The notes under the pieces are model-generated. The model was not told the origin of the DNA. It saw only the letters and a program-made list of their open reading frames with translations, and did no database searches. The position numbers were made by a program, and so were the translations under genes. This document shows, piece after piece, positions 45,563-64,000 of a stretch of 64,000 bases of DNA (position 1 is its first letter; every line of letters starts with the position of its first letter). Source of the DNA: Rhodanobacter humi. Lineage in GTDB: Bacteria > Pseudomonadota > Gammaproteobacteria > Xanthomonadales > Rhodanobacteraceae. Where the stretch lies: contig NZ_JBGBPY010000001.1 of assembly GCF_041107455.1 (NCBI RefSeq), positions 2,976,001 to 3,040,000 of the forward strand, given 5' to 3'.

Positions 45563-45853
45563 GTAAGGATGCGCTCCCCGGTTGGCATGGCGCGACGGGC
45601 CGTCGTCATCGTGAACACCCCTGTCCAGCGCGTTCGGGCAGTGTATGTCCGATCGCCGCCCGCTTGTCCATCGCCTCGGGCACCATTCCTGCCTGCGCCA
45701 GCCTGCCCACTACCTGCCGGCCGGATTCGGGTGCTAGATTGCCGTGAGTCCCCGTGAGGAGCCGTCGCCAACCATGCCACGTGCCGTGCCCTTGCCGTGC
45801 CGTCCGGAATTCGACCTGCCCGGATCGGCGGCGTCGTCGCGGCGGGCCGGCGC
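45563..45853. other. Divergent spacer, Rieske operon versus sulfotransferase
   Basis: These 291 bases contain no convincing gene. TAGATT at 45735-45740 could serve as a -10 for the rightward gene, without a matching -35. No clear operator was seen. Confidence 0.4.
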
Positions 45854-47875: not shown

Positions 47876-47918
47876 TTCGATACCGATCGATGATCGTGGA
47901 CTTGCCTGGGGAGGGTTT

Positions 47919-50812: not shown

Positions 50813-50828
50813 TGGCACGCGGATTGCT
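50813..50828 (+). promoter_or_regulatory. Sigma-54 promoter of the efflux operon
   Basis: TGGCACGCGGATTGCT matches the -24/-12 consensus TGGCACG-N4-TTGCW at every defined position, with the GG and GC doublets correctly spaced. Transcription would start near 50839, giving a 34-base leader with GGGGAA before the adaptor ATG. It implies control by RpoN and an AAA+ activator. Confidence 0.88.
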
Positions 50829-50872
50829 GAGCAGAGGGCAGGGCCGCACTGTCCGCGGCCGGGGAACGCTCG

Positions 50873-52144
50873 ATGATCCGCGACACTTCCGCTCAAGACC
50901 GCCTGGTCGAAGCCAAACCCAACCGCAAGCGCCGCCTGCTCTTCATCGGTGGCGGCGTGGCGCTGCTGGTGGTGCTGGCGATCGCCATGCCCGGCATCCT
51001 CCGCCTGTTCTCCGCCGACGCCTCGGTGAGCGCGTCGCGGCTGGCCTTCGCCACCGTCGAGCGCGGGCTGTTCGTGCGCGACATCGCCGCCGAGGGCAAG
51101 GTGGTGGCGGCGAACAGCCCCACGCTCTATGCCACCTACGGCGGCGCGGCGGTGCTGAAGGTGCGCGCCGGCGACGCGGTGAAGAAGGGCCAGGTGCTCG
51201 CGGTGATCGACAGCCCCGAGCTGCGCAACAAGCTGGCGCAGGAGCAGTCCAAGGCCGACGCGATGAAGGTGGATTACCTGCAGGCGCAAGTGGATGCGCG
51301 CACCAAGCGCGGCGCCCTGCAGAAGGCCTACGACGACGCGCAGATCGACGCCAAGAGCGCTGCCAACAACCTCGACCGCGAGCAGAAGGCCTACGCCGCC
51401 GGCGCCTCCACCGGGGTCGCGGTCGACAAGGCCAAGGACGACCTGGAGAAGGCGAAGATCACCCTCGCGCATGCCAAGGCCGATCTCGGCATGAGCAACG
51501 ACAGCCTGAACTTCAACATCCAGGCGAAGAAGCTGGCGCACGACAACCAGATGCTGGTGGTGCAGGACCTGCAGCGGCAGGTGGACGACCTCAACGTGAA
51601 GTCGCCGGTGGACGGCCAGGTCGGCCAGCTGTTCATCGCGCCGGTGGCCACGGTGGCGAAGGATGTCCAACTGCTCAGCGTGATCGACCTCACCGCGCTG
51701 GAAGTGGAAGTGAAGGTGCCCGAGAGCTTCGCCCGCGACCTCGCGATCGGCATGACCGGCGAGATCAGCGGCAACGGCAACACCTGGAAGGGCCTGGTCA
51801 GCGCGATCTCGCCCGAGGTGGTGAACGGCGAAGTGGCTGCCCGCGTGCGCTTCGAGGGCAGCACGCCGAAGCAGCTGCGCCAGAACCAGCGCCTGTCCGT
51901 GCGCATCCTGCTCGACAAGCGCGACAACGTGCTCACCGTGCAGCGCGGCTCCTTCGTCGACGAATCCGGCGGCAGCTACGCCTACGTGGTCAAGGGCGGC
52001 ATCGCCACCAAGACGCCGATCCGCGTGGGCGTGAGCAGCATCGACAAGGTGGAGATCCTGCAGGGCCTGAAGGAAGGCGACCAGATCGTGATCTCCGGTA
52101 CCGACAGCTTCAAGGGTGCGCAGCGAGTTGCCATCGCGCGGTAA
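50873..52144 (+). CDS. Membrane-fusion (HlyD/MacA-type) efflux adaptor
   Basis: 423 residues. One N-terminal membrane anchor (about 22-42) follows a cytoplasmic lead RDTSAQDRLVEAKPNRKRR. The periplasmic part has a lipoyl half (VRAGDAVKKGQVLAVIDSPEL), a long alpha-helical hairpin (about 110-235, rich in KAYDDAQ/KAKDDLEKAK), the second lipoyl half (VKSPVDGQVGQLF) and beta-barrel and membrane-proximal domains. It would bridge the FtsX-like permeases and the TolC-type channel encoded downstream. First gene after the sigma-54 promoter. Confidence 0.93.
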   Translation: MIRDTSAQDRLVEAKPNRKRRLLFIGGGVALLVVLAIAMPGILRLFSADASVSASRLAFATVERGLFVRDIAAEGKVVAANSPTLYATYGGAAVLKVRAGDAVKKGQVLAVIDSPELRNKLAQEQSKADAMKVDYLQAQVDARTKRGALQKAYDDAQIDAKSAANNLDREQKAYAAGASTGVAVDKAKDDLEKAKITLAHAKADLGMSNDSLNFNIQAKKLAHDNQMLVVQDLQRQVDDLNVKSPVDGQVGQLFIAPVATVAKDVQLLSVIDLTALEVEVKVPESFARDLAIGMTGEISGNGNTWKGLVSAISPEVVNGEVAARVRFEGSTPKQLRQNQRLSVRILLDKRDNVLTVQRGSFVDESGGSYAYVVKGGIATKTPIRVGVSSIDKVEILQGLKEGDQIVISGTDSFKGAQRVAIAR

Positions 52145-52151
52145 GAGATTT

Positions 52152-52384
52152 TCCCCTCTCCCTTTGGACGCGGAGCAGGGCCATGGATGGCCCTGCTTTG
52201 AGGAGCGAGGAAGAGGGTGCCCGACCTGCAGGCGCAGGATGCGACTGCGAAACAGCAAAGCTGGCCCCGAAGGGGCGAGCGACAGGGATGTCGCGAGTAA
52301 GGGCGGGAGAGGGTCCGGGCGGAGCGAGACACTCGCCTTGGCCGAACCCTCACCCCAACCCCTCTCCCGACGGGAGAGGGGCTC
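52152..52384. repeat. Inverted-repeat block between adaptor and ATPase genes
   Basis: It begins CCCCTCTCCC and ends CCCCTCTCCCGACGGGAGAGGGG, enclosing the hairpin GCAGGGCCATGGATGGCCCTGC at 52176-52197 and GGGCGGGAGAGGG. At about 230 bases it is the longest member of the family seen here. Confidence 0.8.
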
Positions 52385-52416
52385 CACAGATCCACCACCA
52401 CCGAGGAACGTGAACC

Positions 52417-53142
52417 ATGCTCAAGATGACCCACCTGTCCAAGGTCTACCGCACCGAAGTGGTGGAGACCTACGCGCTGCGCGACTTCAACATCGACGTG
52501 AAGGAGGGCGAGTTCGTCGCCGTCACCGGGCCGTCCGGTTCGGGCAAGACCACCTTCCTCACCATCGCGGGCCTGCTGGAAACGTTCACCGGCGGCGAGT
52601 ACCACCTCGACGGCATCGAGGTGAGCAACCTCAACGACAACGCGCGCTCGAAGATCCGCAACGAGAAGATCGGCTTCATCTTCCAGGCGTTCAACCTGAT
52701 CCCCGACCTCAACGTGTTCGACAACGTGGAAGTGCCGCTGCGCTACCGCGGCATGAAGGCGCCGGAGCGCAAGCAGCGCATCATGGACGCGCTGGAGCGC
52801 GTGGGCCTGGCCTCGCGTTTCAAGCATTACCCGGCCGAACTCTCCGGCGGCCAGCAGCAGCGCGTGGCGATCGCCCGCGCGCTGGCCGGTTCGCCCCGCC
52901 TGCTGCTCGCCGACGAACCCACCGGCAACCTGGACACGCAGATGGCCCGCGGCGTGCTGGAGCTGCTGGAGGAGATCCACCGCGAAGGCGCCACCATCGT
53001 GATGGTGACCCACGATCCCGAGCTGGCCGCGCGCGCGCAGCGCAACGTGCACATCATCGATGGCCAGGTGGTGGATCTCGCCGAGGATCCGCGTTTCCAC
53101 AACAGCGTGGTCGCGGCGCGCGGCAACGCCAGTCCGGCCTGA
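52417..53142 (+). CDS. MacB/LolD-type ABC transporter ATPase
   Basis: 241 residues. Walker A GPSGSGKT (residues 38-45), Q loop in FIFQAFNLIPDLNVFDNVEVPLRYRG, signature LSGGQQQR (142-149), Walker B LLLADEP (162-168) and the switch His in MVTHDPELA. The layout matches stand-alone ATPases of the MacB/LolD/FtsE group that work with FtsX-type permeases. It is the only ATPase gene in the visible operon and would serve all downstream permeases. Confidence 0.95.
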   Translation: MLKMTHLSKVYRTEVVETYALRDFNIDVKEGEFVAVTGPSGSGKTTFLTIAGLLETFTGGEYHLDGIEVSNLNDNARSKIRNEKIGFIFQAFNLIPDLNVFDNVEVPLRYRGMKAPERKQRIMDALERVGLASRFKHYPAELSGGQQQRVAIARALAGSPRLLLADEPTGNLDTQMARGVLELLEEIHREGATIVMVTHDPELAARAQRNVHIIDGQVVDLAEDPRFHNSVVAARGNASPA

Positions 53143-53191
53143 TGTCTTCCGCCTCCGTCGCCCCCATGCCCGCCCACTGCGAGTCCAGTCC

Positions 53192-54538
53192 ATGCGTGTG
53201 AAGCTGCTGCCCGTGCTGCTCCTGCTCGCCGTTGCCCCGTTCCCGGGGCACGGCGAGGACCTGATGGATGCCTACCGTCAGGCCGTCGCCAACGACCCGG
53301 TGCTGGCCACCGCCGACGCGCATCGCCTGCTGGTGGCCGAGGGCGTCCCGGTGGCCCGCGCCGCGTTGCTGCCGCAGTTGTCCGCGGGGCTGGAGATGGA
53401 CCAGATCCACAGCGGCGGCAGCACCCAGACCACGTCCGGCAACGGCAACATCGTGCAGACCGGCGGCGGTGGCCACGTGCGCGACCGCAGCCTCACCGGC
53501 AACCTCAGCCAGCCGATCATCGACCTGTCCGCCATCGCCAACCTGCGCGCGGCGCACGCCGCCCGCGACGCGCAGGAGCAGGTCTACCAGGCCGCGTTGC
53601 AGAACCTGTACGTGCGTGTGGCCAACGCGTACTTCAACGTGCTGGTGTCGCGGGACATGGTGGACATCAACCGCGCCTACGAGGACGCCTACAAACAGGA
53701 GTACGACCAGACCTCCTCGCGCTTCAAGAACGGCTTGTCGATGGCCGCGGACGTCAGCCAGTCCAAGGCGTTGTACCTGTTCATCAAGGCGCAGCGGATC
53801 AGTGCTGAAGATGCCCTCAAGGATGCGCGCCGCGCACTGCAGCAGATCACCGGCAAGCCGGTGGGCGAGTTGAAGAAGCTGCGCGACGACCTGCCCATGC
53901 AGGCGCCGCAGCCGGACAACGAGCAGGCCTGGGTGGACGCGGCACTGAAGACCAACCCCACCGTGCTCGCCGCGCGCTACGCCGTGACCAGCGACGAGCA
54001 CAAAGTGACGGCGGCACGCGCCGGCCACTTGCCCACGCTCACCGCGGGCGTGGGCTACAACAAGTTCGGCCAGTGGTCGAACACCATGCCGGGCACGGGC
54101 GCCTACGGGCCGGCCACTACCACGGTGGGCCTGACGCTCACCATCCCGCTGTTCAGCGGCGGGCTCACGCATGCGCAGGTGAAGCAGGCGCTGTACCAGC
54201 GCGATGCCGACCAGGGCGTGCTGGAAACCCAGCGCCGCCAAGCCGCGCGCGACGCCGCCAACTACTTCAACCTGGTGACGGACGGCATCGAGCAGGTGGA
54301 CAGCGCGCGCGATTCGGTCGAGGCCGCGCAGAAGACCGTGGCCTCGATGCGGGCGGGCTACACCATCGGCACGCAGTCGCTGACCAACGTGGTGTTCGCG
54401 ATCCAGTACCTCGCCAACATGCAGAGCGAATACACCGTGGTGCGCCACCAGTTCGTGCTCAACAAACTGCTGCTCAAGCAGGCCGCCGGGACGATCGACA
54501 TGCGCGACCTGGAAGCGGTCAACGGGTTGCTGCAATGA
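53192..54538 (+). CDS. TolC-family outer-membrane efflux protein
   Basis: 448 residues from the ATG giving MRVKLLPVLLLLAVAPFPGHGEDLMDAYRQAVANDP; the upstream open frame overlaps the ATPase gene. The signal peptide is about 1-21. The two TolC repeats are recognisable, each with a helical hairpin and a strand segment (YFNVLVSRDMVDINRAYEDAYKQEYDQ; GLTLTIPLFSGGLTHAQVKQA). It lacks a lipobox Cys, so it is not lipidated like OprM. It provides the exit duct for the pump. Confidence 0.93.
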   Translation: MRVKLLPVLLLLAVAPFPGHGEDLMDAYRQAVANDPVLATADAHRLLVAEGVPVARAALLPQLSAGLEMDQIHSGGSTQTTSGNGNIVQTGGGGHVRDRSLTGNLSQPIIDLSAIANLRAAHAARDAQEQVYQAALQNLYVRVANAYFNVLVSRDMVDINRAYEDAYKQEYDQTSSRFKNGLSMAADVSQSKALYLFIKAQRISAEDALKDARRALQQITGKPVGELKKLRDDLPMQAPQPDNEQAWVDAALKTNPTVLAARYAVTSDEHKVTAARAGHLPTLTAGVGYNKFGQWSNTMPGTGAYGPATTTVGLTLTIPLFSGGLTHAQVKQALYQRDADQGVLETQRRQAARDAANYFNLVTDGIEQVDSARDSVEAAQKTVASMRAGYTIGTQSLTNVVFAIQYLANMQSEYTVVRHQFVLNKLLLKQAAGTIDMRDLEAVNGLLQ

Positions 54539-54568
54539 GCGACGCACGCACCAGGTCCGGTTCTTTTT

Positions 54569-54680
54569 CCCCTCTCCCTCCGGGAGAGGGTGCCCATGGG
54601 GCGGGAGAGGGTGCGGGCGGAGCGTGGCGCCTCACTTCGACCGAACCCTCTCCCCAACCCCTCTCCCACAGGGAGAAGGG
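54569..54680. repeat. Inverted-repeat block before permease A1
   Basis: CCCTCTCCCTCCGGGAGAGGG, then GGGCGGGAGAGGGTGCGGGCGGAGCG and CCGAACCCTCTCCCCAACCCCTCTCCCACAGGGAGAAGGG. It lies directly upstream of the first permease gene. Confidence 0.85.
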
Positions 54681-54702
54681 CTTGAATGCGGAGAGCTGAA
54701 CG

Positions 54703-56013
54703 ATGTTCGCCTACTACTTCCAGCTCGGCCTGCGCAGCCTGCGCCGCAATCCTGTCCTCACCTTGTTGATGGTGATGGCGATCGGCTTCGGCGTGGCCGC
54801 ATCGATGATCACTTACTCCGTGTTCCGCGCGGTGTCGGGCAACCCGATACCCGACAAGTCGGCGCAGCTGTTCATTCCGCAGATCGACGGCTGGGGCCCG
54901 CAGCAGAACCTCAAGGGCGAGCCGGCGGAAGCGGTGAGTTACATCGACGCGATGGCGCTGCTGCGGGCACATGAGGCAAAGCGCAAGACGATGCTGTACC
55001 AGGTGCTGATGTCGGTGATGCCGGGCGGCGACCGCGAACTGCCCATCGCCGTCAACGGCTATGCCGTGGGCAGCGACTTCTTCGCCATGTTCGAGGTGCC
55101 GTTCCGCTATGGCGGCAGGTGGAGTGAGCAGGACGATGCGGCGCGCGCCGCCGACGTGGTCATCAGCGGCGAGCTCAACCAGAAGGTGTTCGGTGGCGCG
55201 AACAGCGTGGGTCGCACGATCGACCTTGGCGGCCACGACTACCGCGTGGTGGGCGTCACCAGTCACTGGAACCCGCGCCCGCGTTTCTACGACCTGTTCA
55301 GCACTGACGGTTTCGCCGATGAACCGGACATCTACCTGCCGTTCACCCGCGCGATGGACCTGAAGATGTATCCCAGCGGTCGCAACAGCTGCCGTGGCCA
55401 GCTCAGCTTCACCAACTGGACGGATTACACCCAGAGCAATTGCGTGTGGATCACGCCCTGGGTGGAACTGGACACCCCGGCCGAAGTCGCGAGCTATCGC
55501 AGTTTCCTCACCAACTATGCCATCGACCAGCAGCACGCCGGCCGCTTCAACTGGGCGCCCAACGTGCGCCTGCGCGACGTGGTGCAGTGGCTGGACCACG
55601 AGCATGTGGTGCCGCCCGAGAGCCGCATCTCGCTGGTGGTGGCGCTGGGCTTCTTCCTGATCTGCCTGGTCAACACCATCGGCCTGCTGCTTGCCAAGTT
55701 CATGCGCCGCGCCGGCGAGATCGGCGTGCGCCGCGCGCTGGGCGCCACGCGCAGGGAGATCTACGCCCAATACCTGATCGAGGCGGCCACGGTGGGCCTG
55801 GTCGGCGGCGTGCTGGGTCTGCTGCTCACCGCGCTGGGCGTGTCCGGGGTGGGCATGCTGTTTCCGCCGCAGATCGCGCAGCTGGCGGAGCTCGATGTCT
55901 CCCTGGTGGGGCTTACCCTGGTCGTGGCCATCGTCGCCACCGTGCTGGCGGCGTTCTACCCGGCGTGGCGCGCGGCGCACGTGCAGCCGGCCTGGCAGTT
56001 GAAGTCGAGCTGA
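54703..56013 (+). CDS. FtsX/MacB-like permease, type A (pair 1)
   Basis: 436 residues. A first span (about 16-42) is followed by a periplasmic MacB-type domain to about residue 300, then three spans carrying the FtsX domain. The cytoplasmic coupling motif GEIGVRRALGATRREI sits after the second span, and the end is QPAWQLKSS. Cys230 and Cys247 in the periplasmic part recur in all type A copies. It opens MFAYYFQLGLRSLRRNP. The type B partner follows 10 bases later. It has no ATPase of its own. Confidence 0.92.
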   Translation: MFAYYFQLGLRSLRRNPVLTLLMVMAIGFGVAASMITYSVFRAVSGNPIPDKSAQLFIPQIDGWGPQQNLKGEPAEAVSYIDAMALLRAHEAKRKTMLYQVLMSVMPGGDRELPIAVNGYAVGSDFFAMFEVPFRYGGRWSEQDDAARAADVVISGELNQKVFGGANSVGRTIDLGGHDYRVVGVTSHWNPRPRFYDLFSTDGFADEPDIYLPFTRAMDLKMYPSGRNSCRGQLSFTNWTDYTQSNCVWITPWVELDTPAEVASYRSFLTNYAIDQQHAGRFNWAPNVRLRDVVQWLDHEHVVPPESRISLVVALGFFLICLVNTIGLLLAKFMRRAGEIGVRRALGATRREIYAQYLIEAATVGLVGGVLGLLLTALGVSGVGMLFPPQIAQLAELDVSLVGLTLVVAIVATVLAAFYPAWRAAHVQPAWQLKSS

Positions 56014-56023
56014 GGAGAGGACG

Positions 56024-57262
56024 ATGAGCATCCAGATCCGCCCCATCCTCACCGCGCTGCGCCGTCACAAGGCGGGCACCGTGCTGATCACGTTGCAGAT
56101 CGCGCTGACCCTGGCCATCGTGTGCAACGCGCTGTTCATCATCCACGCGCGACTGGCCAGCCTGTCCGAGGTCAGCGGCGTGGACGAATCCAGCGTCTTC
56201 GTCATCAAGAACCAGTGGGCGACCGAATGGCCGACGGCGCAGGTCGACGCGCAGGTGCAGGCCGACCTGCTCGCGCTGCGGCAGTTGCCCGCCGTGCGTG
56301 ACGCCTCGCCGGCCAACGGTTATCCATTGCAGGGAGGCGGTTGGGACAACTTCGTCACGTTGACCCCCGAACAGACTCAGCCGACCACCGATTCCGCGGT
56401 GTACACCGGCGACGAGCATTTCATCGACACGCTGGGGGTGAAGCTGGTCGCGGGACGCAACTTCCGCCCCGACGATGTGATGGTGATGGGCACCCAGCAG
56501 GCGGTCACCCCACCGACGGTGATCGTGAGCAAGGCGCTGGCCGATCGGCTGTTCCCCGGTGGCGACGCATTGGGCAAGAGCTTCTACGCGATGGGCGCCA
56601 CGCCCAGCACCATCATCGGCATCGTCGATCCGCTGCATCGCCAGGGCGTGAGTCAGTGGAACAAGGCTTATGCCGGGCAGTCGCTGATCTGGCCGATACG
56701 GTCGGCCGATTCGCGCGGCCTCTACTACATCGTGCGTGCCAAGCCCGGCCAGCTCGCCGCCGCGATGCGCGAGGCGCCGAAGGCGCTGTACGCGCAGAGC
56801 CGCCTGCGCATCATCGATGCAAAGGACGGCATCCAGGACTACGCCACGATCCGCCACAAGGTGTACGACGGCGATCGCGGCATGGCGATCCTGATGGGCA
56901 TCATCTGTGTGGTGCTGCTGGCGATCACCGCCGCGGGCATCGTGGGCCTCACCAGCTTCTGGGTCGGTCAGCGCCGCAAGCAGATCGGCGTGCGCCGGGC
57001 GCTGGGTGCCAAGCAGCGCGACATCCTCGCCTACTTCCTTACCGAGAACTTCCTGATCAGTGCGGCGGGCGTGACGCTGGGCATCGTGCTGGCGTTCGCC
57101 TTCAACCTGTGGACGGTGACCCGTTTCGCGCTGGATCGCATGTCGCTGGCCTACGTGGGCGTCGGCGTGATCGTGCTGCTGCTGCTGGGACAAGCCGCGG
57201 TGCTGGCGCCGGCGCTGCGCGCCTCGCGCGTGTCGCCGGTGGAGGCCACGCGCAGCGTGTGA
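56024..57262 (+). CDS. FtsX/MacB-like permease, type B (pair 1)
   Basis: 412 residues with the same four-span plan but a different signature: MSIQIRPILTALRRHKAGTVLITLQIALTLAIVCNALF at the N terminus, TAAGIVGLTSFWVGQRRKQIGVRRALGAKQRDIL around the coupling helix, and SPVEATRSV at the end. It lacks the periplasmic Cys pair of type A. AGGAG is close upstream. It probably forms a heterodimer with the preceding type A protein. Confidence 0.92.
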   Translation: MSIQIRPILTALRRHKAGTVLITLQIALTLAIVCNALFIIHARLASLSEVSGVDESSVFVIKNQWATEWPTAQVDAQVQADLLALRQLPAVRDASPANGYPLQGGGWDNFVTLTPEQTQPTTDSAVYTGDEHFIDTLGVKLVAGRNFRPDDVMVMGTQQAVTPPTVIVSKALADRLFPGGDALGKSFYAMGATPSTIIGIVDPLHRQGVSQWNKAYAGQSLIWPIRSADSRGLYYIVRAKPGQLAAAMREAPKALYAQSRLRIIDAKDGIQDYATIRHKVYDGDRGMAILMGIICVVLLAITAAGIVGLTSFWVGQRRKQIGVRRALGAKQRDILAYFLTENFLISAAGVTLGIVLAFAFNLWTVTRFALDRMSLAYVGVGVIVLLLLGQAAVLAPALRASRVSPVEATRSV

Positions 57263-57271
57263 CTGCTTTGC

Positions 57272-57412
57272 TCCCCTCTCCCACTTGTGGGAGAGGGGCC
57301 GGGGGAGAGGGCGGGATTTGCAACAACGCCCGAGCACCCTCTCCCCCAACCCCTCTCCCGCAATGCGGAGAGGGGAGCGGCGATTGGCCTCTCCCGCCGG
57401 GAGAGGCGCTCA
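57272..57412. repeat. Inverted-repeat block before permease A2
   Basis: CCCCTCTCCCACTTGTGGGAGAGGGG, GGGGGAGAGGGCGGG, then CCCTCTCCCCCAACCCCTCTCCCGCAATGCGGAGAGGGG and CCTCTCCCGCCGGGAGAGG. Three hairpins are in tandem. Confidence 0.85.
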
Positions 57413-57430
57413 AACAACGGAGAGAACGAA

Positions 57431-58747
57431 ATGTTCGCCTACTACCTCGACCTCGCATTGCGCAGCCTGAAACGCAGCCCCGGCCTCACCGCCTTGATGG
57501 TGCTGGCGATCGGCTTCGGCGTGGCCGCCTCGATGACCTCGTGGTCGGTGTTCCGCGCCGTGTCGGGCGACCCGATCCCGTGGAAATCCGCACAGCTGTT
57601 CGTGCCGCAGGTCGACAACTGGGGGCCGAACGGCCGCGATCCCGACGGCGATCCGCCGAACGCGATGGACTACACCGACGCGACGGCGCTGATGCGCGAC
57701 CACCGCGCCAAACTGCAGTCGGCGATGTACCAGATCTCGCCCTCGGTCGTACCCGCGGAGGCCACCAAGCATCCGATCAACGTCAGCGGCCATGCGGTGT
57801 ACGGCGAGTTCTTCCCGATGCTGGACGTGCCGTTCCTGTACGGCAGCGGCTGGAGCGCCAGCGACGACGCCAACCGGGCGCAGGTGGTGGTGATCAGCAG
57901 CAAGCTCAACCAGAAGCTGTTCGGCGGCACCAGCAGCCTGGGCAAGAGCGTCAACATCGAGGGCCACGATTACCGCGTGGTGGGCGTGCTGAACGACTGG
58001 AACCCGCAGCCGCGCTTCTACGACGTGGTCAATTCGGGCGGCTTCAACAGCCAGACCGACGATGTGTTCCTGCCGTTCCTGACCGCCATCCAGGCGAACA
58101 TGCAGAACGATGGCAACACCAACTGCAATGCGGTGCCCAAGGAATCCGGCTTCGTCGGCCTGCAGCACTCCGAGTGCGTGTGGATCGCCTACATGGCCGA
58201 GCTGGACGACGCCTCGGCGGTGTCGGCCTACCGCAACTACCTGCAGGGTTACGCCCGCGAGCAGCAGCAGAACGGGCGCTTCGGCTGGGCGCCGAACAAC
58301 CGCCTGCGCAACCTGCCGGCGTGGCTGGACAACCAGCATGTGGTGCCCAGCGACACCAAGGTCTCGCTGCTGGTGGCGCTGGGCCTGCTGCTGGTGTGCC
58401 TGGTCAACACCATCGGCCTGCTGCTGGCGAAGTTCCTGCGTCGCAGCGCCGAGATCGGCGTGCGCCGCGCGCTGGGCGCGCCGCGCATGGCGATCTACGC
58501 GCAGTTCCTCACCGAGGCCGGCATCGTCGGCGCGGCCGGCGGCGTGCTCGGCCTGCTGCTCACCTGCGCCGGCGTGGCCAGCGTGGGCTGGGTGATGCCC
58601 AAGGACATCGCCGCCCTCGCACGGCTGGACGTCTCGCTGCTGGTGCTGACCCTGCTGGTGGCGGTGATCGCCACCATGCTGGCGGGCCTGTATCCCACCT
58701 ACCGTGCCTCGCGGGTGCAACCCGCGTGGCAGCTCAAATCGAACTGA
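57431..58747 (+). CDS. FtsX/MacB-like permease, type A (pair 2)
   Basis: 438 residues from the ATG giving MFAYYLDLALRSLKRSPGLTALMVLAIGFGVAASM; upstream in-frame sequence is the repeat block. It is very close to pair-1 type A (for example VSGDPIPWKSAQLFVPQVDNWGP, NQKLFGGTSSLGK, AEIGVRRALGAPRMAIYAQFL, QPAWQLKSN). The periplasmic Cys pair is in TNCNAV and SECVW. Unlike the other pairs, it is separated from its B partner by 205 bases containing a distinct repeat. Confidence 0.92.
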   Translation: MFAYYLDLALRSLKRSPGLTALMVLAIGFGVAASMTSWSVFRAVSGDPIPWKSAQLFVPQVDNWGPNGRDPDGDPPNAMDYTDATALMRDHRAKLQSAMYQISPSVVPAEATKHPINVSGHAVYGEFFPMLDVPFLYGSGWSASDDANRAQVVVISSKLNQKLFGGTSSLGKSVNIEGHDYRVVGVLNDWNPQPRFYDVVNSGGFNSQTDDVFLPFLTAIQANMQNDGNTNCNAVPKESGFVGLQHSECVWIAYMAELDDASAVSAYRNYLQGYAREQQQNGRFGWAPNNRLRNLPAWLDNQHVVPSDTKVSLLVALGLLLVCLVNTIGLLLAKFLRRSAEIGVRRALGAPRMAIYAQFLTEAGIVGAAGGVLGLLLTCAGVASVGWVMPKDIAALARLDVSLLVLTLLVAVIATMLAGLYPTYRASRVQPAWQLKSN

Positions 58748-58795
58748 GGCCAATCATGTCGTCCTCCGTCGCGCATTCCGTGCCATACAACTTCC

Positions 58796-58902
58796 CCGTT
58801 CGCCCTGAGCGTAGGCGCGCAGCGCCGAAGTCGAAGGGCATTGCATACCAGCCGATGGCCCCACGCCCTTCGACTTCGCTTCGCTACGCTCAGGGCGAAC
58901 GG
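58796..58902. repeat. 107-base inverted-repeat element between pair-2 permeases
   Basis: The outer arms CCGTTCGCCCTGAGCGTAG (58796-58814) and CTACGCTCAGGGCGAACGG (58884-58902) are perfect 19-base complements. Inner arms CGAAGTCGAAGGGC (58826-58839) and GCCCTTCGACTTCG (58865-58878) are also perfect. It is unrelated to the CCTCTCCC family and looks like a small mobile or palindromic element. Confidence 0.9.
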
Positions 58903-58952
58903 TCGGGGGCGGTGGAACGTTGTGTTGGCCATACCTTGTCGAGGAGCGCGCC

Positions 58953-60212
58953 ATGAAACTGCACCCCATGATCGCGGCATTGCGCAAGCACAAGGCGGGC
59001 GTGGTGCTGATCGCGCTGCAGATCGCGCTGACCCTGGCGATCGTCTGCAATGCCATCTTCATCATCGGCCAGCGCATCGACCGGGTGAACCGCCCCACCG
59101 GACTGGACGAGAGCAACCTGTTCCTGGTCACCCAGCAGTGGGTGGGCGCACCGAGCGCCGACACGCCCAACGGCGTGGCCAAGCTCGACGCGATGCAGAA
59201 GGAGGATCTCGCCGCGCTGCGCAACCTGCCCGGCGTGGCCTCGGTGACGCCGATCAACTCGCTGCCGCTGCTCAATTCGTCCTGGAACGGCGCGGTTTCG
59301 ACCAAGCCGGACCGGAAGTTCAGCGACAAGGGCGACAACGTGCGCACCACGTACTACTTCACCGACGAGCAGGTGATGTCGACGCTGGGCCTGAAGCTGG
59401 TGGCCGGCCGTGCGTTCAACGCCGGTGACGTGCAGCATCAGGGTTTCCGCGACAATCCCCCGCGACCGATCATCATGGTCACCAAGGCACTGGCGGACAA
59501 GCTGTTCCCGCAGGGCGACGCGGTGGGCAAGCCGATCTATGTCGACGGCAGCAGCTCGCCCAGCACCATCGTCGGCGTGGTGGCGCGCCTGCAGGTGCCT
59601 TCCACCGGCACCTGGGTCAACGGCTTCACCTGGAATGCCACCTTGGTGCCCACGCGGCTGAATGCGGGCTTCGCGCGTTACGCGGTGCGTACCAAGCCGG
59701 GCCAGCTGGAAGCGGCGATGAAGGCGGCGGCGCCCACGCTGTACAAGGTGAACCCGCTGCGCGTGCTCGACGACGACAGCGTCAAGTCGTTCGCCGACAT
59801 CCGCGCCGAGGCCTACCGCGCCGACGTGGGCATGGCGATCCTGATGGGCGTGATCTGCCTGGTCCTGCTCAGCGTCACCGCGGCGGGCATCGTGGGCCTC
59901 ACCAGCTTCTGGGTCGGCCAGCGCCACCGGCAGATCGGCGTGCGCCGCGCGCTGGGCGCGCGCAAGGTCGACATCCTGCACTACTTCCAGCTGGAGAACC
60001 TGCTGATCGCGGGCAGCGGCGCGGTGATCGGCATCGTCATGGCGATCGGTTTGAACCTGTGGTTGATGCGCCTCTACCAGATGGATCGCCTGCCGGTGGT
60101 CTACACCCTGATCGGCGTGGTGGCGGTGCTGGTGCTGGGCCAGTGCGCCGTGTTCGTGCCGGCCCGACGCGCCTCTAACGTGCCGCCGGTGACGGCCACG
60201 CGCGCGGCGTGA
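58953..60212 (+). CDS. FtsX/MacB-like permease, type B (pair 2)
   Basis: 419 residues from the ATG giving MKLHPMIAALRKHKAGVVLIALQIALTLAIVCNAIF, with GAGGAG upstream. The coupling region TAAGIVGLTSFWVGQRHRQIGVRRALGARKVDIL and the ending PPVTATRAA fit type B. The periplasmic domain differs from pair 1 much more than the membrane part does (NSSWNGAVSTKPDRKFSDKGDN and other blocks), consistent with a changed substrate surface. Confidence 0.92.
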   Translation: MKLHPMIAALRKHKAGVVLIALQIALTLAIVCNAIFIIGQRIDRVNRPTGLDESNLFLVTQQWVGAPSADTPNGVAKLDAMQKEDLAALRNLPGVASVTPINSLPLLNSSWNGAVSTKPDRKFSDKGDNVRTTYYFTDEQVMSTLGLKLVAGRAFNAGDVQHQGFRDNPPRPIIMVTKALADKLFPQGDAVGKPIYVDGSSSPSTIVGVVARLQVPSTGTWVNGFTWNATLVPTRLNAGFARYAVRTKPGQLEAAMKAAAPTLYKVNPLRVLDDDSVKSFADIRAEAYRADVGMAILMGVICLVLLSVTAAGIVGLTSFWVGQRHRQIGVRRALGARKVDILHYFQLENLLIAGSGAVIGIVMAIGLNLWLMRLYQMDRLPVVYTLIGVVAVLVLGQCAVFVPARRASNVPPVTATRAA

Positions 60213-60218
60213 CGCTTT

Positions 60219-60338
60219 TTCCCTCCCCCGCTTGCGTGGGAGGTGCCCGCATGGGCGGGAGGGGGCACGGGCGAAGCGCAGCGTCACGCGCTGGCCGAAC
60301 CCTCTCCCCCAACCCCTCTCCCGGCGGGAGAGGGGAGC
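60219..60338. repeat. Inverted-repeat block before permease A3
   Basis: CCCTCCCCCGCTTGCGTGGGAGG, GGGCGGGAGGGGGCACGGGCGAAGCG and GGCCGAACCCTCTCCCCCAACCCCTCTCCCGGCGGGAGAGGGG. It has the same order of parts as the block before A1. Confidence 0.85.
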
Positions 60339-60364
60339 AAGTCCTGGCCATTGGGAGATTGGGA

Positions 60365-61666
60365 ATGTTCGGCTACTACCTCGACCTCGCCCTGCGCAGC
60401 CTCAAGCGCAACCGCGTGCTCACCGTGCTGATGGTGCTGGCGATCGCGGTGGGCATCGGCGCCTGCATGACCACGCTGACGGTGGTGCATCTGCTTTCCG
60501 GCGATCCGCTGCCTGGCAAGAGCAGCGTGCTGTTTTTCCCGCAGGTGGACCCGGAGAATCCCATCATGGAGGGAGTCACCGAGCCGCGTCCGGCGATGGA
60601 TTACCGCTCGGCCATGGACCTGTGGAGCGCGCATCGCGCCGACCGCCAGGCGATCATTACCAGCAGCCCCGTGAAGGTGCGCCTGCCGAACAGCGGCCAG
60701 CCGCCGTTGATGCCGAGCATGCTTTCCACCTCGGCGGATTTCTTTCCGATGTTCGACGTGCCGTTCCAGTACGGCTCCGGCTGGAGCGCGGACGACGATT
60801 CGCACCACGCACGCGTGGTGGTGATCTCGGCAGACCTCAACCAGAAACTGTTTGGCGGCGCCAACAGCGTGGGCCGTATCCTGCGCGTGCGCGATGCCGA
60901 CATGCGCATCGTCGGCGTGCTGAAGCCATGGCGCCCCACGCCGCTGTTCTACGACCCGTGGAACCAGAACTTCAGCAAGTCGGAAGACGTCTTTGCCCCG
61001 TTCACCAGCAGCCTGGAAATCAACAAGGGCAACTTCCAGGCCTATACCTGCTGGCATGTGCCGCCATCCATGGGCGACCTGCAGAACGCCGATTGCATGT
61101 GGGTGTGGCTGTGGGTGGAGCTGGATAGCCCGGCCAAGGTGCGCGACTACGCGCGCTTCGTGAACGATTACGCGAACACGCAGAAGTCGCTGGGCCGCTT
61201 CGCCGTGGGCAGCGAGCATGCGCGGCTGCGCGACCTGATGACCTGGCTGACCTACCGCGGCCAGGTGCCGGGCGACGTGCGCTTGCAGGCGTGGCTGGCG
61301 TCGGCCTTCCTCGTCATCTGCCTGTTCAACGCGGTGGGCCTGCTGCTGGCGAAGTTCCTGCGTCGCAGCGGTGAGATCGGCGTGCGCCGCGCGCTGGGCG
61401 CCAGCCGCGGCGCGATCTTCGCGCAGTGCCTGGTCGAGGCCGGCCTGATTGGTCTGCTCGGCGGCTTCTTTGGCTGGCTGTTGACGCTGATCGGCTTGTG
61501 GCTGGTGCGGCAGCAGCCGGTGGACTACGCCCATCTCGCACACCTGGACACCGCCATGTTCCTCGTCACGTTCGTGCTGGCGGTCGGCACCAGCCTGCTC
61601 GCCGGGCTGGTACCTGCGCTGCGCGCGAGCCGCGTGGTCCCCGGCTGGCAACTCAAGGCGCTGTGA
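60365..61666 (+). CDS. FtsX/MacB-like permease, type A (pair 3)
   Basis: 433 residues from the ATG giving MFGYYLDLALRSLKRNRVLTVLMVLAIAVGIGACMTTLTVVHLLSGDPLPGKSS. The Cys pair is in AYTCWHV and NADCMWVW. The coupling motif is SGEIGVRRALGASRGAIFAQCL and the ending VVPGWQLKAL. It belongs, with A4, to a sub-branch (IGIGA, TLTVVHLLSGDPLPG) that differs from A1 and A2. The B partner follows 11 bases later. Confidence 0.92.
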   Translation: MFGYYLDLALRSLKRNRVLTVLMVLAIAVGIGACMTTLTVVHLLSGDPLPGKSSVLFFPQVDPENPIMEGVTEPRPAMDYRSAMDLWSAHRADRQAIITSSPVKVRLPNSGQPPLMPSMLSTSADFFPMFDVPFQYGSGWSADDDSHHARVVVISADLNQKLFGGANSVGRILRVRDADMRIVGVLKPWRPTPLFYDPWNQNFSKSEDVFAPFTSSLEINKGNFQAYTCWHVPPSMGDLQNADCMWVWLWVELDSPAKVRDYARFVNDYANTQKSLGRFAVGSEHARLRDLMTWLTYRGQVPGDVRLQAWLASAFLVICLFNAVGLLLAKFLRRSGEIGVRRALGASRGAIFAQCLVEAGLIGLLGGFFGWLLTLIGLWLVRQQPVDYAHLAHLDTAMFLVTFVLAVGTSLLAGLVPALRASRVVPGWQLKAL

Positions 61667-61677
61667 GGAGGCCGACC

Positions 61678-62895
61678 ATGCAGATCAAACCGATACTTGC
61701 GGCGCTGCGCCGCCATCGCCTGGCCACCTTGCTGATCGCGGTGGAAATCGCACTGGCCTGCGCCGTGTTGTGCAACGCCTGCTTCCTGGTGGCGCGGCGC
61801 TGGACGATGATCGAGATCAACAGCGGTGTCGACGAGAGTTCGCTGGCGGTACTGACGGTCAACGGCTTCGAACCGAACCAGGCCGCCGATGTAAACGCAC
61901 GAATGCTGGCTGGCCTGCAGGCCATTCCGGGTATGCAGTCGGCCACCCTCATCAGCGAGGTGCCGTTCGGGCCGCAAACCGGTGCAGCAGGCATTTCGCA
62001 TGACGCGGAAAGTTTCAAGAACCTGATCGGTGTGGTGGATTTCGTGCTGGCCGGGCCGGGCACGTACAAGGCGCTGGGTCTGAAGCTGATCGAAGGGCGG
62101 CTGCCTCAGCCCGATGACTACCGACCTGCCACCAGTTTCGCTCCCGAGGATGCGCAGGTACTGGTCACCCGCGCACTGGCGGAACACGCGTGGCCGGGCG
62201 AAAGCCCGCTGGGCAAGGATTTTTGGTGCGACAAGATGCACTTCCGCGTCATGGGCGTGGTGGACCATTTCGCCCGCGCGCAGCCCAGCCAATACAACAT
62301 GCAGCAGGGCGAGTGGACGGTGTTCACGCCGGTCGTGCCGGGCGGCTCGCTGGCCGGTACCTATCTGCTGCGGGCCACGCCGCAGGATGTGCAGCGCGCG
62401 CTGCAGGCAGCGCGTGCCGCCGTGCCGAAGATCGCCCCCGACGTGGTGCTGGACCAAGACAACAGCAAGACCCTGGGTGACCTGCGCGCGAGCTACTTCA
62501 AGACCGACCGCATCATGATCGGCCTGCTGCTCGGCGTGGTGGTCCTCATGCTCGGCGTCACCGCGCTGGGCATCGTCGGCCTTACCAGCTTCTGGGTGGC
62601 GCAGCGGCGCAAGCAGATCGGCATCCGCCGTGCGATCGGCGCGACGCGGGGCGACATCCTGCGCTACTTCCAGACCGAGAACTTCCTGATTGTCACGTTC
62701 GGCATCGCGCTCGGCATGCTGCTGGCCTTCGTGCTCAACGCGGTACTGATGAAGTTCTACGAGCTGCCGCATTTGCCTTTGTATTACCTGCCGCTGGGCG
62801 CGCTGGCGCTGTGGGGGTTGGGCCAGCTCGCCGTGCTTGGCCCCGCGCTGCGCGCCGCGGCGGTACCGCCGGTGGTGGCGACGCGGAGCGTGTGA
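61678..62895 (+). CDS. FtsX/MacB-like permease, type B (pair 3)
   Basis: 405 residues, the most diverged type B copy: MQIKPILAALRRHRLATLLIAVEIALACAVLCNACF at the start, ALGIVGLTSFWVAQRRKQIGIRRAIGATRGDIL in the coupling region and PPVVATRSV at the end. An unpaired extra Cys occurs in the periplasmic part (KDFWCDKMHF). TGAGGAGG lies eight bases before the ATG. Confidence 0.92.
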   Translation: MQIKPILAALRRHRLATLLIAVEIALACAVLCNACFLVARRWTMIEINSGVDESSLAVLTVNGFEPNQAADVNARMLAGLQAIPGMQSATLISEVPFGPQTGAAGISHDAESFKNLIGVVDFVLAGPGTYKALGLKLIEGRLPQPDDYRPATSFAPEDAQVLVTRALAEHAWPGESPLGKDFWCDKMHFRVMGVVDHFARAQPSQYNMQQGEWTVFTPVVPGGSLAGTYLLRATPQDVQRALQAARAAVPKIAPDVVLDQDNSKTLGDLRASYFKTDRIMIGLLLGVVVLMLGVTALGIVGLTSFWVAQRRKQIGIRRAIGATRGDILRYFQTENFLIVTFGIALGMLLAFVLNAVLMKFYELPHLPLYYLPLGALALWGLGQLAVLGPALRAAAVPPVVATRSV

Positions 62896-62902
62896 GGTGC
62901 TT

Positions 62903-63006
62903 GCTCCCCTCTCCCTCCGGGAGAGGGGCCGGGGGAGAGGGTACGGGCTGGCCTCAGTGCCGAAAGCGCCCTCTCCCCCAACCCCTCTCCCGAAGGGAGA
63001 GGGGAG
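62903..63006. repeat. Inverted-repeat block before permease A4
   Basis: CCCCTCTCCCTCCGGGAGAGGGG, GGGGGAGAGGGTACGGGC and CCCTCTCCCCCAACCCCTCTCCCGAAGGGAGAGGGG. It repeats the pattern at the other pair junctions. Confidence 0.85.
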
Positions 63007-63026
63007 TGCAATCAGGGAGGCATGAC

Positions 63027-64000
63027 ATGTTCGGCTATTACCTCGATCTCGCCTTGCACAGCCTGAAGCGCAACAAGGCGCTCACCGCCCTGATGGTGCT
63101 GGCGATCGCGCTGGGCATCGGTGCGTCGATGACCACGCTCACCGTGCTGCACGTGCTGTCCGGCGACCCGCTGCCGGGGCGCAGCGGCACGCTGTATTAC
63201 CCGCAGATCGATCCGCGCGACAACGGCGGCTTGCTGCCGGGCAAGGAGCCGCCGGAGCAGCTCACTTACATCGACGGCCTCAACCTGCTGCATGCGAAGC
63301 GGGCGGATCGCCAGGCGCTGATGACCGGCGGTGCGGTGCCGATCCAGCCCGACTCGGCCGAGCTCGATCCGTTCTACGTGGAGGCGCGCTACACCACCGC
63401 CGACTTCTTCCCGATGTTCGGCACGCGCTTCCGCTACGGCCAGGGCTGGAACGCGGCGGACGACGAGGCGAAGGCGCGCGAAGTGGTGATCAACAGCGAG
63501 CTGAACGAACGCCTGTTCGGGGGCGCCAACAGCGTGGGTCGCACGCTGCGCATCGGGGACACCACGTTCCGCATCGCGGGCGTGCTCGACGACTGGGCGC
63601 CCAGTCCGCACTTCTACGATCTCAACACCGGTTCGTACGGCTACGCGGAACAAGTGTTCATGCCGCTGCTGACCGCGCTGGACCTGCACATGGATCACAA
63701 CGGTTCCACCGACTGCTGGGGCAACGGCGCTGGCGGCGCGGGCCATATCTATCCGGCGGCAAGTTGCGTGTGGATGCAGTTCTGGGTGCAGCTGGATACC
63801 CCGGCCAAGGCGGCTGAGTACCAGGAATTCCTGATCCATTACTCGGAGCAGCAGAAGGCGCTGGGGCGTTTCGTGAAGGCGCCGAACGTGCGCCTGCGCA
63901 ACGTGATGCAGTGGCTTTCCTACGAAATGGTGGTGCCCGACGACGTGCGCCTGCAGACCGGGCTGGCGTTCGGCTTCCTGCTGGTGTGCCTGGTCAACAC
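63027..64000 (+). CDS. FtsX/MacB-like permease, type A (pair 4), cut by window end
   Basis: The first 324 codons are present; the frame is open to the right edge. It starts MFGYYLDLALHSLKRNKALTALMVLAIALGIGASMTTLTVLHVLSGDPLPGRSG, close to A3. The periplasmic Cys pair is in TDCWGN and ASCVWMQFW. The last residues (DDVRLQTGLAFGFLLVCLVN) begin the second membrane span. A type B partner is expected just outside the window. CAGGGAGG precedes the start. Confidence 0.92.
   Translation, partial: MFGYYLDLALHSLKRNKALTALMVLAIALGIGASMTTLTVLHVLSGDPLPGRSGTLYYPQIDPRDNGGLLPGKEPPEQLTYIDGLNLLHAKRADRQALMTGGAVPIQPDSAELDPFYVEARYTTADFFPMFGTRFRYGQGWNAADDEAKAREVVINSELNERLFGGANSVGRTLRIGDTTFRIAGVLDDWAPSPHFYDLNTGSYGYAEQVFMPLLTALDLHMDHNGSTDCWGNGAGGAGHIYPAASCVWMQFWVQLDTPAKAAEYQEFLIHYSEQQKALGRFVKAPNVRLRNVMQWLSYEMVVPDDVRLQTGLAFGFLLVCLVN

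Follow-up and report, generated by a model that had tools for sequence, protein, structure and literature searches.

A permease-pair array headed by a single ABC ATPase in Rhodanobacter humi, a candidate modular exporter of the MacB/LolCDE type

Organization of the locus

The DNA analysed here, referred to as the window, is a stretch of 64,000 nucleotides (nt) comprising positions 2976001-3040000 of contig 1 in the 4.15 Mb genome of Rhodanobacter humi (designated G000; other G numbers denote sampled relatives). Its right-hand end carries the beginning of a gene cluster which, judging from its sequence, probably encodes a Type VII (MacB/LolCDE-like) tripartite exporter, in which a single ATP-binding cassette (ABC) ATPase would power alternative heterodimers of two permease types, A and B. 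On the plus strand, a sigma-54 promoter is followed by genes encoding an adaptor, the ATPase, a TolC-type channel, seven A-B permease pairs, a response regulator and a histidine kinase. The features are given below in window numbering, with the pair types (T) described further on and with the ratio of nonsynonymous to synonymous substitution rates abbreviated as dN/dS.

50813-50828, plus strand: sigma-54 (-24/-12) promoter TGGCACGCGGATTGCT, a perfect match to TGGCAC-N5-TTGCW at the head of the operon, with the adaptor start 60 nt downstream
50873-52144, plus strand: periplasmic adaptor, HlyD/MacA-like, 423 amino acids (Pfam HlyD_D23, NCBIfam RND_mfp)
52417-53142, plus strand: ABC ATPase, 241 amino acids, the sole one of the array (ABC_tran; Walker A GPSGSGKT, signature LSGGQ)
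53192-54538, plus strand: TolC-type outer-membrane channel, 448 amino acids (OEP; type_I_sec_TolC)
54703-56013, plus strand: permease A1, type T4 (MacB_PCD 5e-18, FtsX 6.5e-17; dN/dS 0.24)
56024-57262, plus strand: permease B1, type T4 (FtsX 2.4e-15, MacB_PCD 5.5e-13; dN/dS 0.31)
57263-57430, no strand: B1-A2 spacer with the palindromic CCCTCTCCC/GGGAGAGGG element; spacers of the same kind at 60213-60364 and 62896-63026
57431-58747, plus strand: permease A2, type T3 (dN/dS 0.21)
58953-60212, plus strand: permease B2, type T3 (dN/dS 0.26)
60365-61666, plus strand: permease A3, type T6 (dN/dS 0.125)
61678-62895, plus strand: permease B3, type T6 (FtsX alone, MacB_PCD unmatched; dN/dS 0.17)
63027-64334, plus strand: permease A4, type T10, of which the window holds 63027-64000 (dN/dS of A4 to B7, 0.14-0.46)
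64345-65574, past the window: permease B4
65738-67045, past the window: permease A5
67050-68261, past the window: permease B5
68441-69754, past the window: permease A6
69818-71071, past the window: permease B6
71197-72507, past the window: permease A7
72504-73721, past the window: permease B7 (FtsX alone)
73810-75144, past the window: NtrC-type response regulator (Sigma54_activat 3.2e-65)
75930-77315, past the window: histidine kinase

The initial annotation, made from the window alone, had placed the adaptor, ATPase and channel genes at 50873, 52417 and 53192 on the plus strand, and these positions were confirmed both in the genome and by Pfam. It had also described seven permeases in strict A-B-A-B alternation, and all of them were found (A1 to B3 and the first 974 bases of A4, which is cut by the window edge). 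Extended to the right, the array proved to contain seven pairs, where at least three had been proposed; its seven A and seven B genes alternate strictly, the last (B7) ends at 73721, and seven of the 14 lie entirely past the edge. The perfect sigma-54 site and the two-component genes are likewise additions to the initial annotation. The same gene order was found again in 22 arrays of the family, and this recurrence indicates that the arrangement in R. humi is not due to chance. The closest named relative, as judged by permease B1, is Rhodanobacter sp. C06 (92 % identity).

The spacing of the genes points to the pair as the unit of the array, since A-to-B gaps are shorter than B-to-A gaps. Within the R. 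humi pairs the A-to-B gap is -4 to 11 nt in five of seven cases (63 nt for A6-B6 and 205 nt for A2-B2), and neighbouring pairs are separated by 125-179 nt; in the annotated loci, measured between model matches, the median gap is 14 nt from A to B (n = 211) and 79 nt from B to A (n = 155). The spacers ahead of pairs are occupied by the palindromic CCCTCTCCC/GGGAGAGGG elements (54559-54682, 57270-57421, 60219-60341 and 62896-63006), and 11 of the 16 copies of CCCTCTCCC in the window fall within 54500-64000, the others being located at about 21.1 kb and at 52.2-52.4 kb.

A single ATPase gene in loci with one to twelve pairs

The number of ATPase genes was assessed in 51 adaptor-plus-ATPase loci. 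Besides the 22 family arrays, these include 29 further loci drawn from the same family, the order and the class; they were hand-picked from the matches of whole-genome searches, so that the pair numbers are not a random sample, and loci containing pairs without an ATPase were excluded before the count. In every one of the 51, the stretch from the adaptor to the array end contained exactly one open reading frame with a Walker A motif and an ABC signature, and a MacA-like adaptor was likewise universal. The earlier proposal of a single ATPase, for which ATPase genes just past the edge had been named as counter-evidence, is thereby upheld, as none was found at the window edge or inside the array by annotation or among reading frames with ABC motifs. 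The single TolC of that proposal describes the R. humi array but is not a general trait, as a TolC gene is present in only 7 of the 22 family arrays.

The number of pairs varies widely. The highest numbers are 12 (G022), 11 (G041, G054), 9 (G052) and 8 (G029), followed by seven in G000, G058, G045, G009 and G012 and at least seven in G034, whose stretch is cut. Six pairs are found in G020, G005, G003 and G048; five in G028 (one A incomplete), G040, G039, G007, G002 and G145; four in G018, G013, G024a, G051, G042 and G070; three in G035, G033a and G049; two in G106, G010b and G153; and one in the other 18 loci. This series bears on the alternative raised in the initial annotation, a large mixed assembly in which several A/B pairs would stand together in one complex round the adaptor ring. 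The single adaptor and ATPase genes, the single promoter at the head and the co-directional genes would all suit such a complex. Nevertheless, it is considered improbable, because the same machine exists with 1, 2, 3 and up to 12 pairs and with variable type content; moreover, Type VII members are described as containing two permease units in each complex, in the form of homodimers, heterodimers or fused permeases (PMC5985334).

Beyond the hand-picked loci, an even draw of 59 family genomes yielded two or more B-like permeases (E ≤ 1e-70) in 41 genomes, one in 16 and none in two. In a sample of the phylum, a B permease at E ≤ 1e-60 was detected in 27 of 398 genomes, and the 17 B-bearing genomes outside the order had one each, with up to four candidates scored per genome. 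The one-pair form is exemplified by a Pseudoalteromonas record consisting of an adaptor, an ATP-binding protein, a permease and an FtsX-like permease, adjoined by a sigma-54 regulator and another ATP-binding protein, which by its position beside the regulator is kinase-like.

Several further observations concern the composition of individual loci. Directly after the five-pair array of G040 (G040:C26, L047) lies a fused-permease system that has an adaptor-like gene and an ATPase of its own. In the G028 array (L045, L046) permease A2 covers 69 % of the model, the rest of the array being complete, which reflects either decay or a draft-assembly error. A DUF885 gene with a signal-peptide-like start is located, by position, between the last pair and the regulator in 13 loci (G058, G029, G045, G052, G028, G018, G020, G013, G003, G002, G035, G049 and G026), sometimes accompanied by a PDZ-like or lipoprotein-like gene; a 14th, in G008, is placed elsewhere, and none is present in the R. 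humi stretch. This neighbour may hint at peptide substrates.

The pairs as distinct and faithful units

The relationships of the pairs were analysed in 143 complete pairs from 23 loci (the 22 arrays and one locus of G024 lacking an ATPase), with pair 2 of G028 excluded owing to its incomplete A gene. Distances among A and among B proteins were highly correlated (r 0.866), while 500 shuffles of B within arrays gave a mean of 0.022 and a maximum of 0.101. Clusters built from A alone and from B alone agreed with adjusted Rand indices of 0.95 (k = 8), 0.76 (k = 10), 1.00 (k = 12) and 1.00 (k = 14). The prediction that the pairs are faithful A/B units is borne out, and these comparisons indicate that the pairs are old and distinct; their fidelity suggests an A/B heterodimer, as in LolCDE. 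Twelve pair types were distinguished, of which T3, T4, T6 and T10 occur in 20-21 of the 23 loci and the rest in 1-15, in varied order.

In a joint FastTree analysis of 211 pairs, all those from multi-pair arrays fell into one clade (support 1.0, n = 199), which also contains pairs separated from any ATPase and six one-pair loci (G017, G047, G059, G087, G133 and G149); each of the 12 pairs outside it derives from a one-pair locus. Pairs of a second family branch from within, or as sisters of, T6, T8, T9 and T12, and the deep branches of the tree are weakly supported (0.34-0.48). The head-to-tail repetition of the pairs could also be explained by simple gene dosage, that is, by the tandem amplification of one transporter. 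This explanation is hardly credible, since the pairs are old and distinct, the nearest A relative lies within the same array for only one of 143 A genes, and types are nested with or sister to pairs from a second family. Recent tandem amplification was ruled out by the trees.

The dN/dS values, calculated by the Nei-Gojobori method with an in-house script for each R. humi permease against a near sampled orthologue, ranged from 0.125 to 0.456 over all 14 genes, with B6 highest, which indicates that all 14 are under purifying selection. Inactive copies, named in the initial annotation as potential counter-evidence, were ruled out by these values, none of the 14 looking inactive.

Comparison of A-A and B-B identities by domain, as recommended in the initial annotation, revealed conserved coupling and membrane parts and divergent periplasmic parts. 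With the limits of the periplasmic domain and of transmembrane helices 2-4 (TM2-4) set by the author, the R. humi paralogues share 41 % (A) and 29 % (B) identity in the periplasmic domain and 57 % (A) and 61 % (B) in TM2-4. Very similar values were obtained between types within arrays (periplasmic, 40 % for A and 30 % for B; TM2-4, 56 % and 62 %), and periplasmic identity within a type across arrays reached 65 % (A) and 56 % (B). The most conserved 20-amino-acid window, LLAKFLRRSGEIGVRRALGA in A and VGLTSFWVGQRRRQIGVRRA in B, covers the end of TM2 and the coupling stretch, where the ATPase-coupling helix is located in the MacB/LolCE/FtsX superfamily. The corresponding motif pattern was matched by 140 of 143 A and 143 of 144 B proteins in the 22 family arrays, by 54 of 63 A and 52 of 62 B in the 29 further loci, and by 12 of 13 A and 10 of 13 B among the pairs lacking an adjacent ATPase together with two G055 pairs; the deviant genes among the former retain the coupling stretch with small changes.

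Domain architecture and predicted structure

The three head proteins were identified by their profiles. The adaptor matches HlyD_D23 (2.4e-10) and, above the cut-off, RND_mfp (6.9e-37), with DarC (5.6e-22) below its cut-off; the channel matches OEP (9.1e-56) and, above its cut-off, type_I_sec_TolC. The ATPase (ABC_tran, 1.7e-31) is of the MacB/LolD type that characterizes Type VII systems and carries the Walker A and signature motifs, and its NCBIfam models rank in the order DarD (256 bits, cut-off 375), LolD, FtsE and MacB.

The permeases (403-438 amino acids) show the Type VII layout in Pfam, AlphaFold and Foldseek analyses, with one N-terminal helix, a periplasmic core domain and three C-terminal helices. 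A Pfam scan of A1, B1, A7 and B7 detected both MacB_PCD and FtsX in the first three and FtsX alone in B7, and in the whole-genome model search FtsX matched all 14 permeases and MacB_PCD 12 of them (absent from B3 and B7). AlphaFold2 models of A1 (mean predicted local distance difference test score, pLDDT, 83.8; predicted template modelling score, pTM, 0.69) and B1 (pLDDT 91.5; pTM 0.81) contain four membrane-helix regions each. The top Foldseek match of both is MacB 5gko (A1, E 8.5e-20, TMq 0.56; B1, E 2.7e-19, TMq 0.68), followed by other MacB chains, the Streptococcus pneumoniae transporter 5xu1 and LolCDE chains, and the sequence profiles concur with this assignment. Natural A-B fusions from which the heterodimer could be modelled were sought in 72 related loci, and none satisfied the criteria.

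Two periplasmic cysteines (A1 positions 230 and 247) occur together in 129 of 143 A proteins and are both missing from 14, never singly; the losses affect 11 of 12 proteins of type T12 and 3 of 15 of type T5, including A5 and A6 of R. humi. This distribution makes a disulfide likely in most A types.

Probable regulation by sigma-54 and the adjoining two-component system

Within 250 nt upstream of the adaptor match, the 51 loci possess a sigma-54 site that is perfect in 30 cases, has one mismatch in 13 and two or more in eight (including G042, whose stretch begins inside the adaptor, leaving the site region outside it). By a hand count assuming equal base frequencies, approximately 0.004 of such 250-nt stretches should contain a site with no more than one mismatch. 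A search of the array strand for sigma-54 promoters belonging to single pairs gave perfect sites at the 30 locus heads and at one additional R. humi position (29181 of the stretch), far downstream and past the kinase. In several arrays, sites with one mismatch recur within A genes, some 372-381 nt ahead of the following B, and are read as conserved coding sequence.

In 19 of the 22 family arrays, both the regulator and the kinase come after the last pair; G002 and G020 show the regulator only (both stretches being cut), and G040 shows neither, its stretch ending after the fused-permease system. As the regulator belongs to the sigma-54-activating class, self-activation is the simple reading. 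The kinase contains two hydrophobic stretches (12-30 and 56-74, located by an in-house hydropathy script) with a short loop between them, so that sensing through the transporter, as in Bce systems (PMC5985334), would be possible. Two small frames between the regulator and the kinase (75170-75511 and 75590-75895) have signal-peptide-like starts by eye and gave no Pfam match at E ≤ 0.1.

These features could also mean that the pairs are not transporters but BceAB- or FtsEX-like sensors, which report envelope threats to the adjacent kinase. FtsEX is known as a mechanotransmitter. BceAB acts with its kinase as a sensor (PMC5985334), and the position of the two-component genes and the short loop of the kinase are in keeping with such a role. 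On the other hand, the MacA-like adaptor in all 51 loci and the TolC gene in 7 of 22 arrays indicate an exit route, which renders signalling in place of transport unlikely; in any case, sensing and export are not mutually exclusive.

Pairs without a neighbouring ATPase

If the array ATPase is a shared engine, pairs without an ATPase of their own are to be expected, and such orphan pairs are present in relatives. Eleven complete orphan pairs at separate loci were identified in seven array-bearing genomes, namely G042 (three), G024 (two), G022 (two) and G018, G039, G010 and G033 (one each), with the nearest ABC ATPase about 11 kb or more distant. Around the orphans of G042, G024, G018 and G022, 42-62 kb was read without an ABC ATPase being encountered, and the closest ABC-like gene to those of G039, G010 and G033 is a distant relative about 11-19 kb away. 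A whole-genome search of the seven genomes identified 17 B-like genes outside the arrays, eleven of which were read, the other six being located in G024 (three) and in G022, G039 and G010 (one each). Comparisons among the orphan genes gave dN/dS values of 0.10-0.24 (six mutual comparisons), and the G033 orphan pair has a one-mismatch sigma-54 site 53 nt upstream of the A match. B-like genes outnumber the array counts in many other genomes as well, where they may represent orphan pairs or loci with their own ATPase.

In G024, G042, G018 and G039 the only ATPase of the subfamily (E ≤ 1e-60) is that of the array, which is 88-96 % identical to the ATPase of the window. The orphans read in G024 and G042 belong to T4 and T10, the core types that are missing from their arrays (T3-T6-T5-T12). 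This pattern is the strongest comparative sign that the array ATPase may serve non-adjacent pairs. The opposite arrangement, in which other ATPases power the pairs in trans and the local ATPase serves one pair only, could draw on the 58 %-identical ATPase encoded elsewhere in R. humi (C1:1435382). However, that ATPase sits in its own locus with fused permeases, extra pairs across the family occur in the operon of the local ATPase, and four orphan-bearing relatives have no other subfamily ATPase at E ≤ 1e-60, which makes this arrangement very improbable.

Some observations weigh against a shared ATPase and faithful pairs. The orphan pairs might use another, less similar ATPase: G022, G010 and G033 carry further subfamily ATPases (47-58 % identical, none near an orphan pair), R. 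humi itself has the 58 %-identical one in a fused-permease system, and G040 carries, immediately after its last pair, a fused system with an ATPase of its own. The coupling motif pattern was missed by 9 of 63 A and 10 of 62 B proteins in the further loci and by 1 of 13 A and 3 of 13 B among the orphans and G055 pairs, and one A gene (A2 of G028) is incomplete. The nearest pair from another array agrees between A and B in only 84 of 143 cases, and, because A and B are neighbours, the congruence of their trees could also be explained by linkage or block duplication.

The system that contains the 58 %-identical R. humi ATPase extends over C1:1427375-1437491 (L141:3375-13491) on the minus strand and includes an adaptor-like gene, regulator-like and kinase-like genes and two fused double permeases (an 813-amino-acid frame and a frame of up to 1040 amino acids with a mechanical start). 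This system, too, apparently combines two permease units with one ATPase. An ATPase is likewise encoded beside each of the other FtsX loci of R. humi.

Relationship to known systems and proposed mechanism

To our knowledge, exporters of the MacB/LolCDE superfamily have been described as fixed complexes of one ATPase and one permease set. The array shares with MacAB-TolC the adaptor and TolC partner genes, the MacB-like ATPase and the permease fold with periplasmic core and FtsX domains, but MacB is a fused ATPase-permease chain acting as a homodimer, whereas the array has a separate ATPase, unfused to any permease, and seven different A/B pairs. LolCDE, which acts with LolA in lipoprotein release, combines a separate ATPase with a heterodimer of two four-helix permeases, an arrangement that the array may share; it consists of a single pair, however, and is not known to have a MacA-like adaptor or TolC, and the array has many pairs per ATPase. 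The darobactin exporter DarBCD provides the nearest NCBIfam model of the ATPase (DarD) and a model matching the adaptor (DarC), but all scores are below the cut-offs (DarD 256/375, DarC 78/450, DarB 18/700 for A1) and the DarB model is a single 777-position permease.

The ADOP model (TIGR03434) aligns with A1 over positions 7-401 and with B1 over positions 411-801, and A7 and B7 likewise correspond to its first and second halves, so that a pair looks like a split ADOP; orphan pairs, moreover, resemble ADOP permeases in having no neighbouring ATPase. The array permeases are nevertheless unfused, the array pairs have an upstream ATPase, and the four permeases score 110-186 bits against a cut-off of 622.3, each over one half. 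BceAB-BceRS resembles the array in having a MacB-superfamily permease next to a two-component system, but is not known to have an adaptor, and its regulator class and promoter are unlike those of the array. BceB is a single ten-helix permease (PMC5985334); the array permeases, with 403-438 amino acids and, in the A1 and B1 models, four helix regions, differ from this form with one large extracellular domain. A genome paper lists 28 and 33 copies annotated as ADOP, to which it assigns no function (PMC11573002). Sharing of an ATPase is documented for MsmX and MsmK, each of which energizes several Type I sugar importers (PMC7658222); these are importers of another class with the ATPase at a separate locus, whereas here the ATPase heads the array. 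Among the open-access literature matches listed, most subscription papers being outside the scope, neither a permease-pair array under one ATPase nor a shared ATPase for this exporter class was found. The single parts are already known, and an exporter array with many pairs on one ATPase appears to be new, its mechanism being an interpretation of the sequences.

In the proposed mechanism, the operon's own NtrC-type regulator and kinase would most likely activate it from its single sigma-54 promoter. An ATPase homodimer would couple to any of the seven A/B heterodimers, one pair at a time, each heterodimer would offer its own periplasmic domain to a periplasmic substrate, and mechanotransmission of the kind included in the MacB model would drive the substrate through the common adaptor and TolC. 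The pairs would thus act as cassettes that alter what the pump handles without duplication of the engine or the exit duct. The substrates are probably peptides or other hydrophobic envelope-active compounds, by analogy with the related MacB and DarBCD. The modular pump with exchangeable heterodimers envisaged in the initial annotation is supported in part, its sequence predictions having been borne out; that the ATPase is physically shared, that A and B form heterodimers, that each pair handles one class of substrate and that the kinase regulates its own array is what we infer. The wider proposal, in which one multitask ATPase, one adaptor and one duct serve up to a dozen cognate A/B pairs, including chromosomally distant ones, is evenly poised between acceptance and doubt. 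In this wider proposal, the kinase with its short loop might detect the pair in use and act back, via sigma-54, on the whole array.

If correct, the cassette exporter would extend ATPase sharing to Type VII exporters for the first time, and it would offer a model of orphan (ADOP) permeases without an ATPase neighbour. The natural series from one to 12 pairs, together with the ATPase-less pairs, makes it testable how one ATPase drives many permeases, how the substrate range of an exporter evolves through added cassettes, and whether an ATPase acting in trans energizes the orphan MacB-type permeases of other phyla; the split array of genus g24 (G024, G042) constitutes a ready-made natural experiment.

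Directly upstream of the array (45797-50486), a TPR-sulfotransferase-like gene followed by a TonB-receptor-like gene was recognized by eye.

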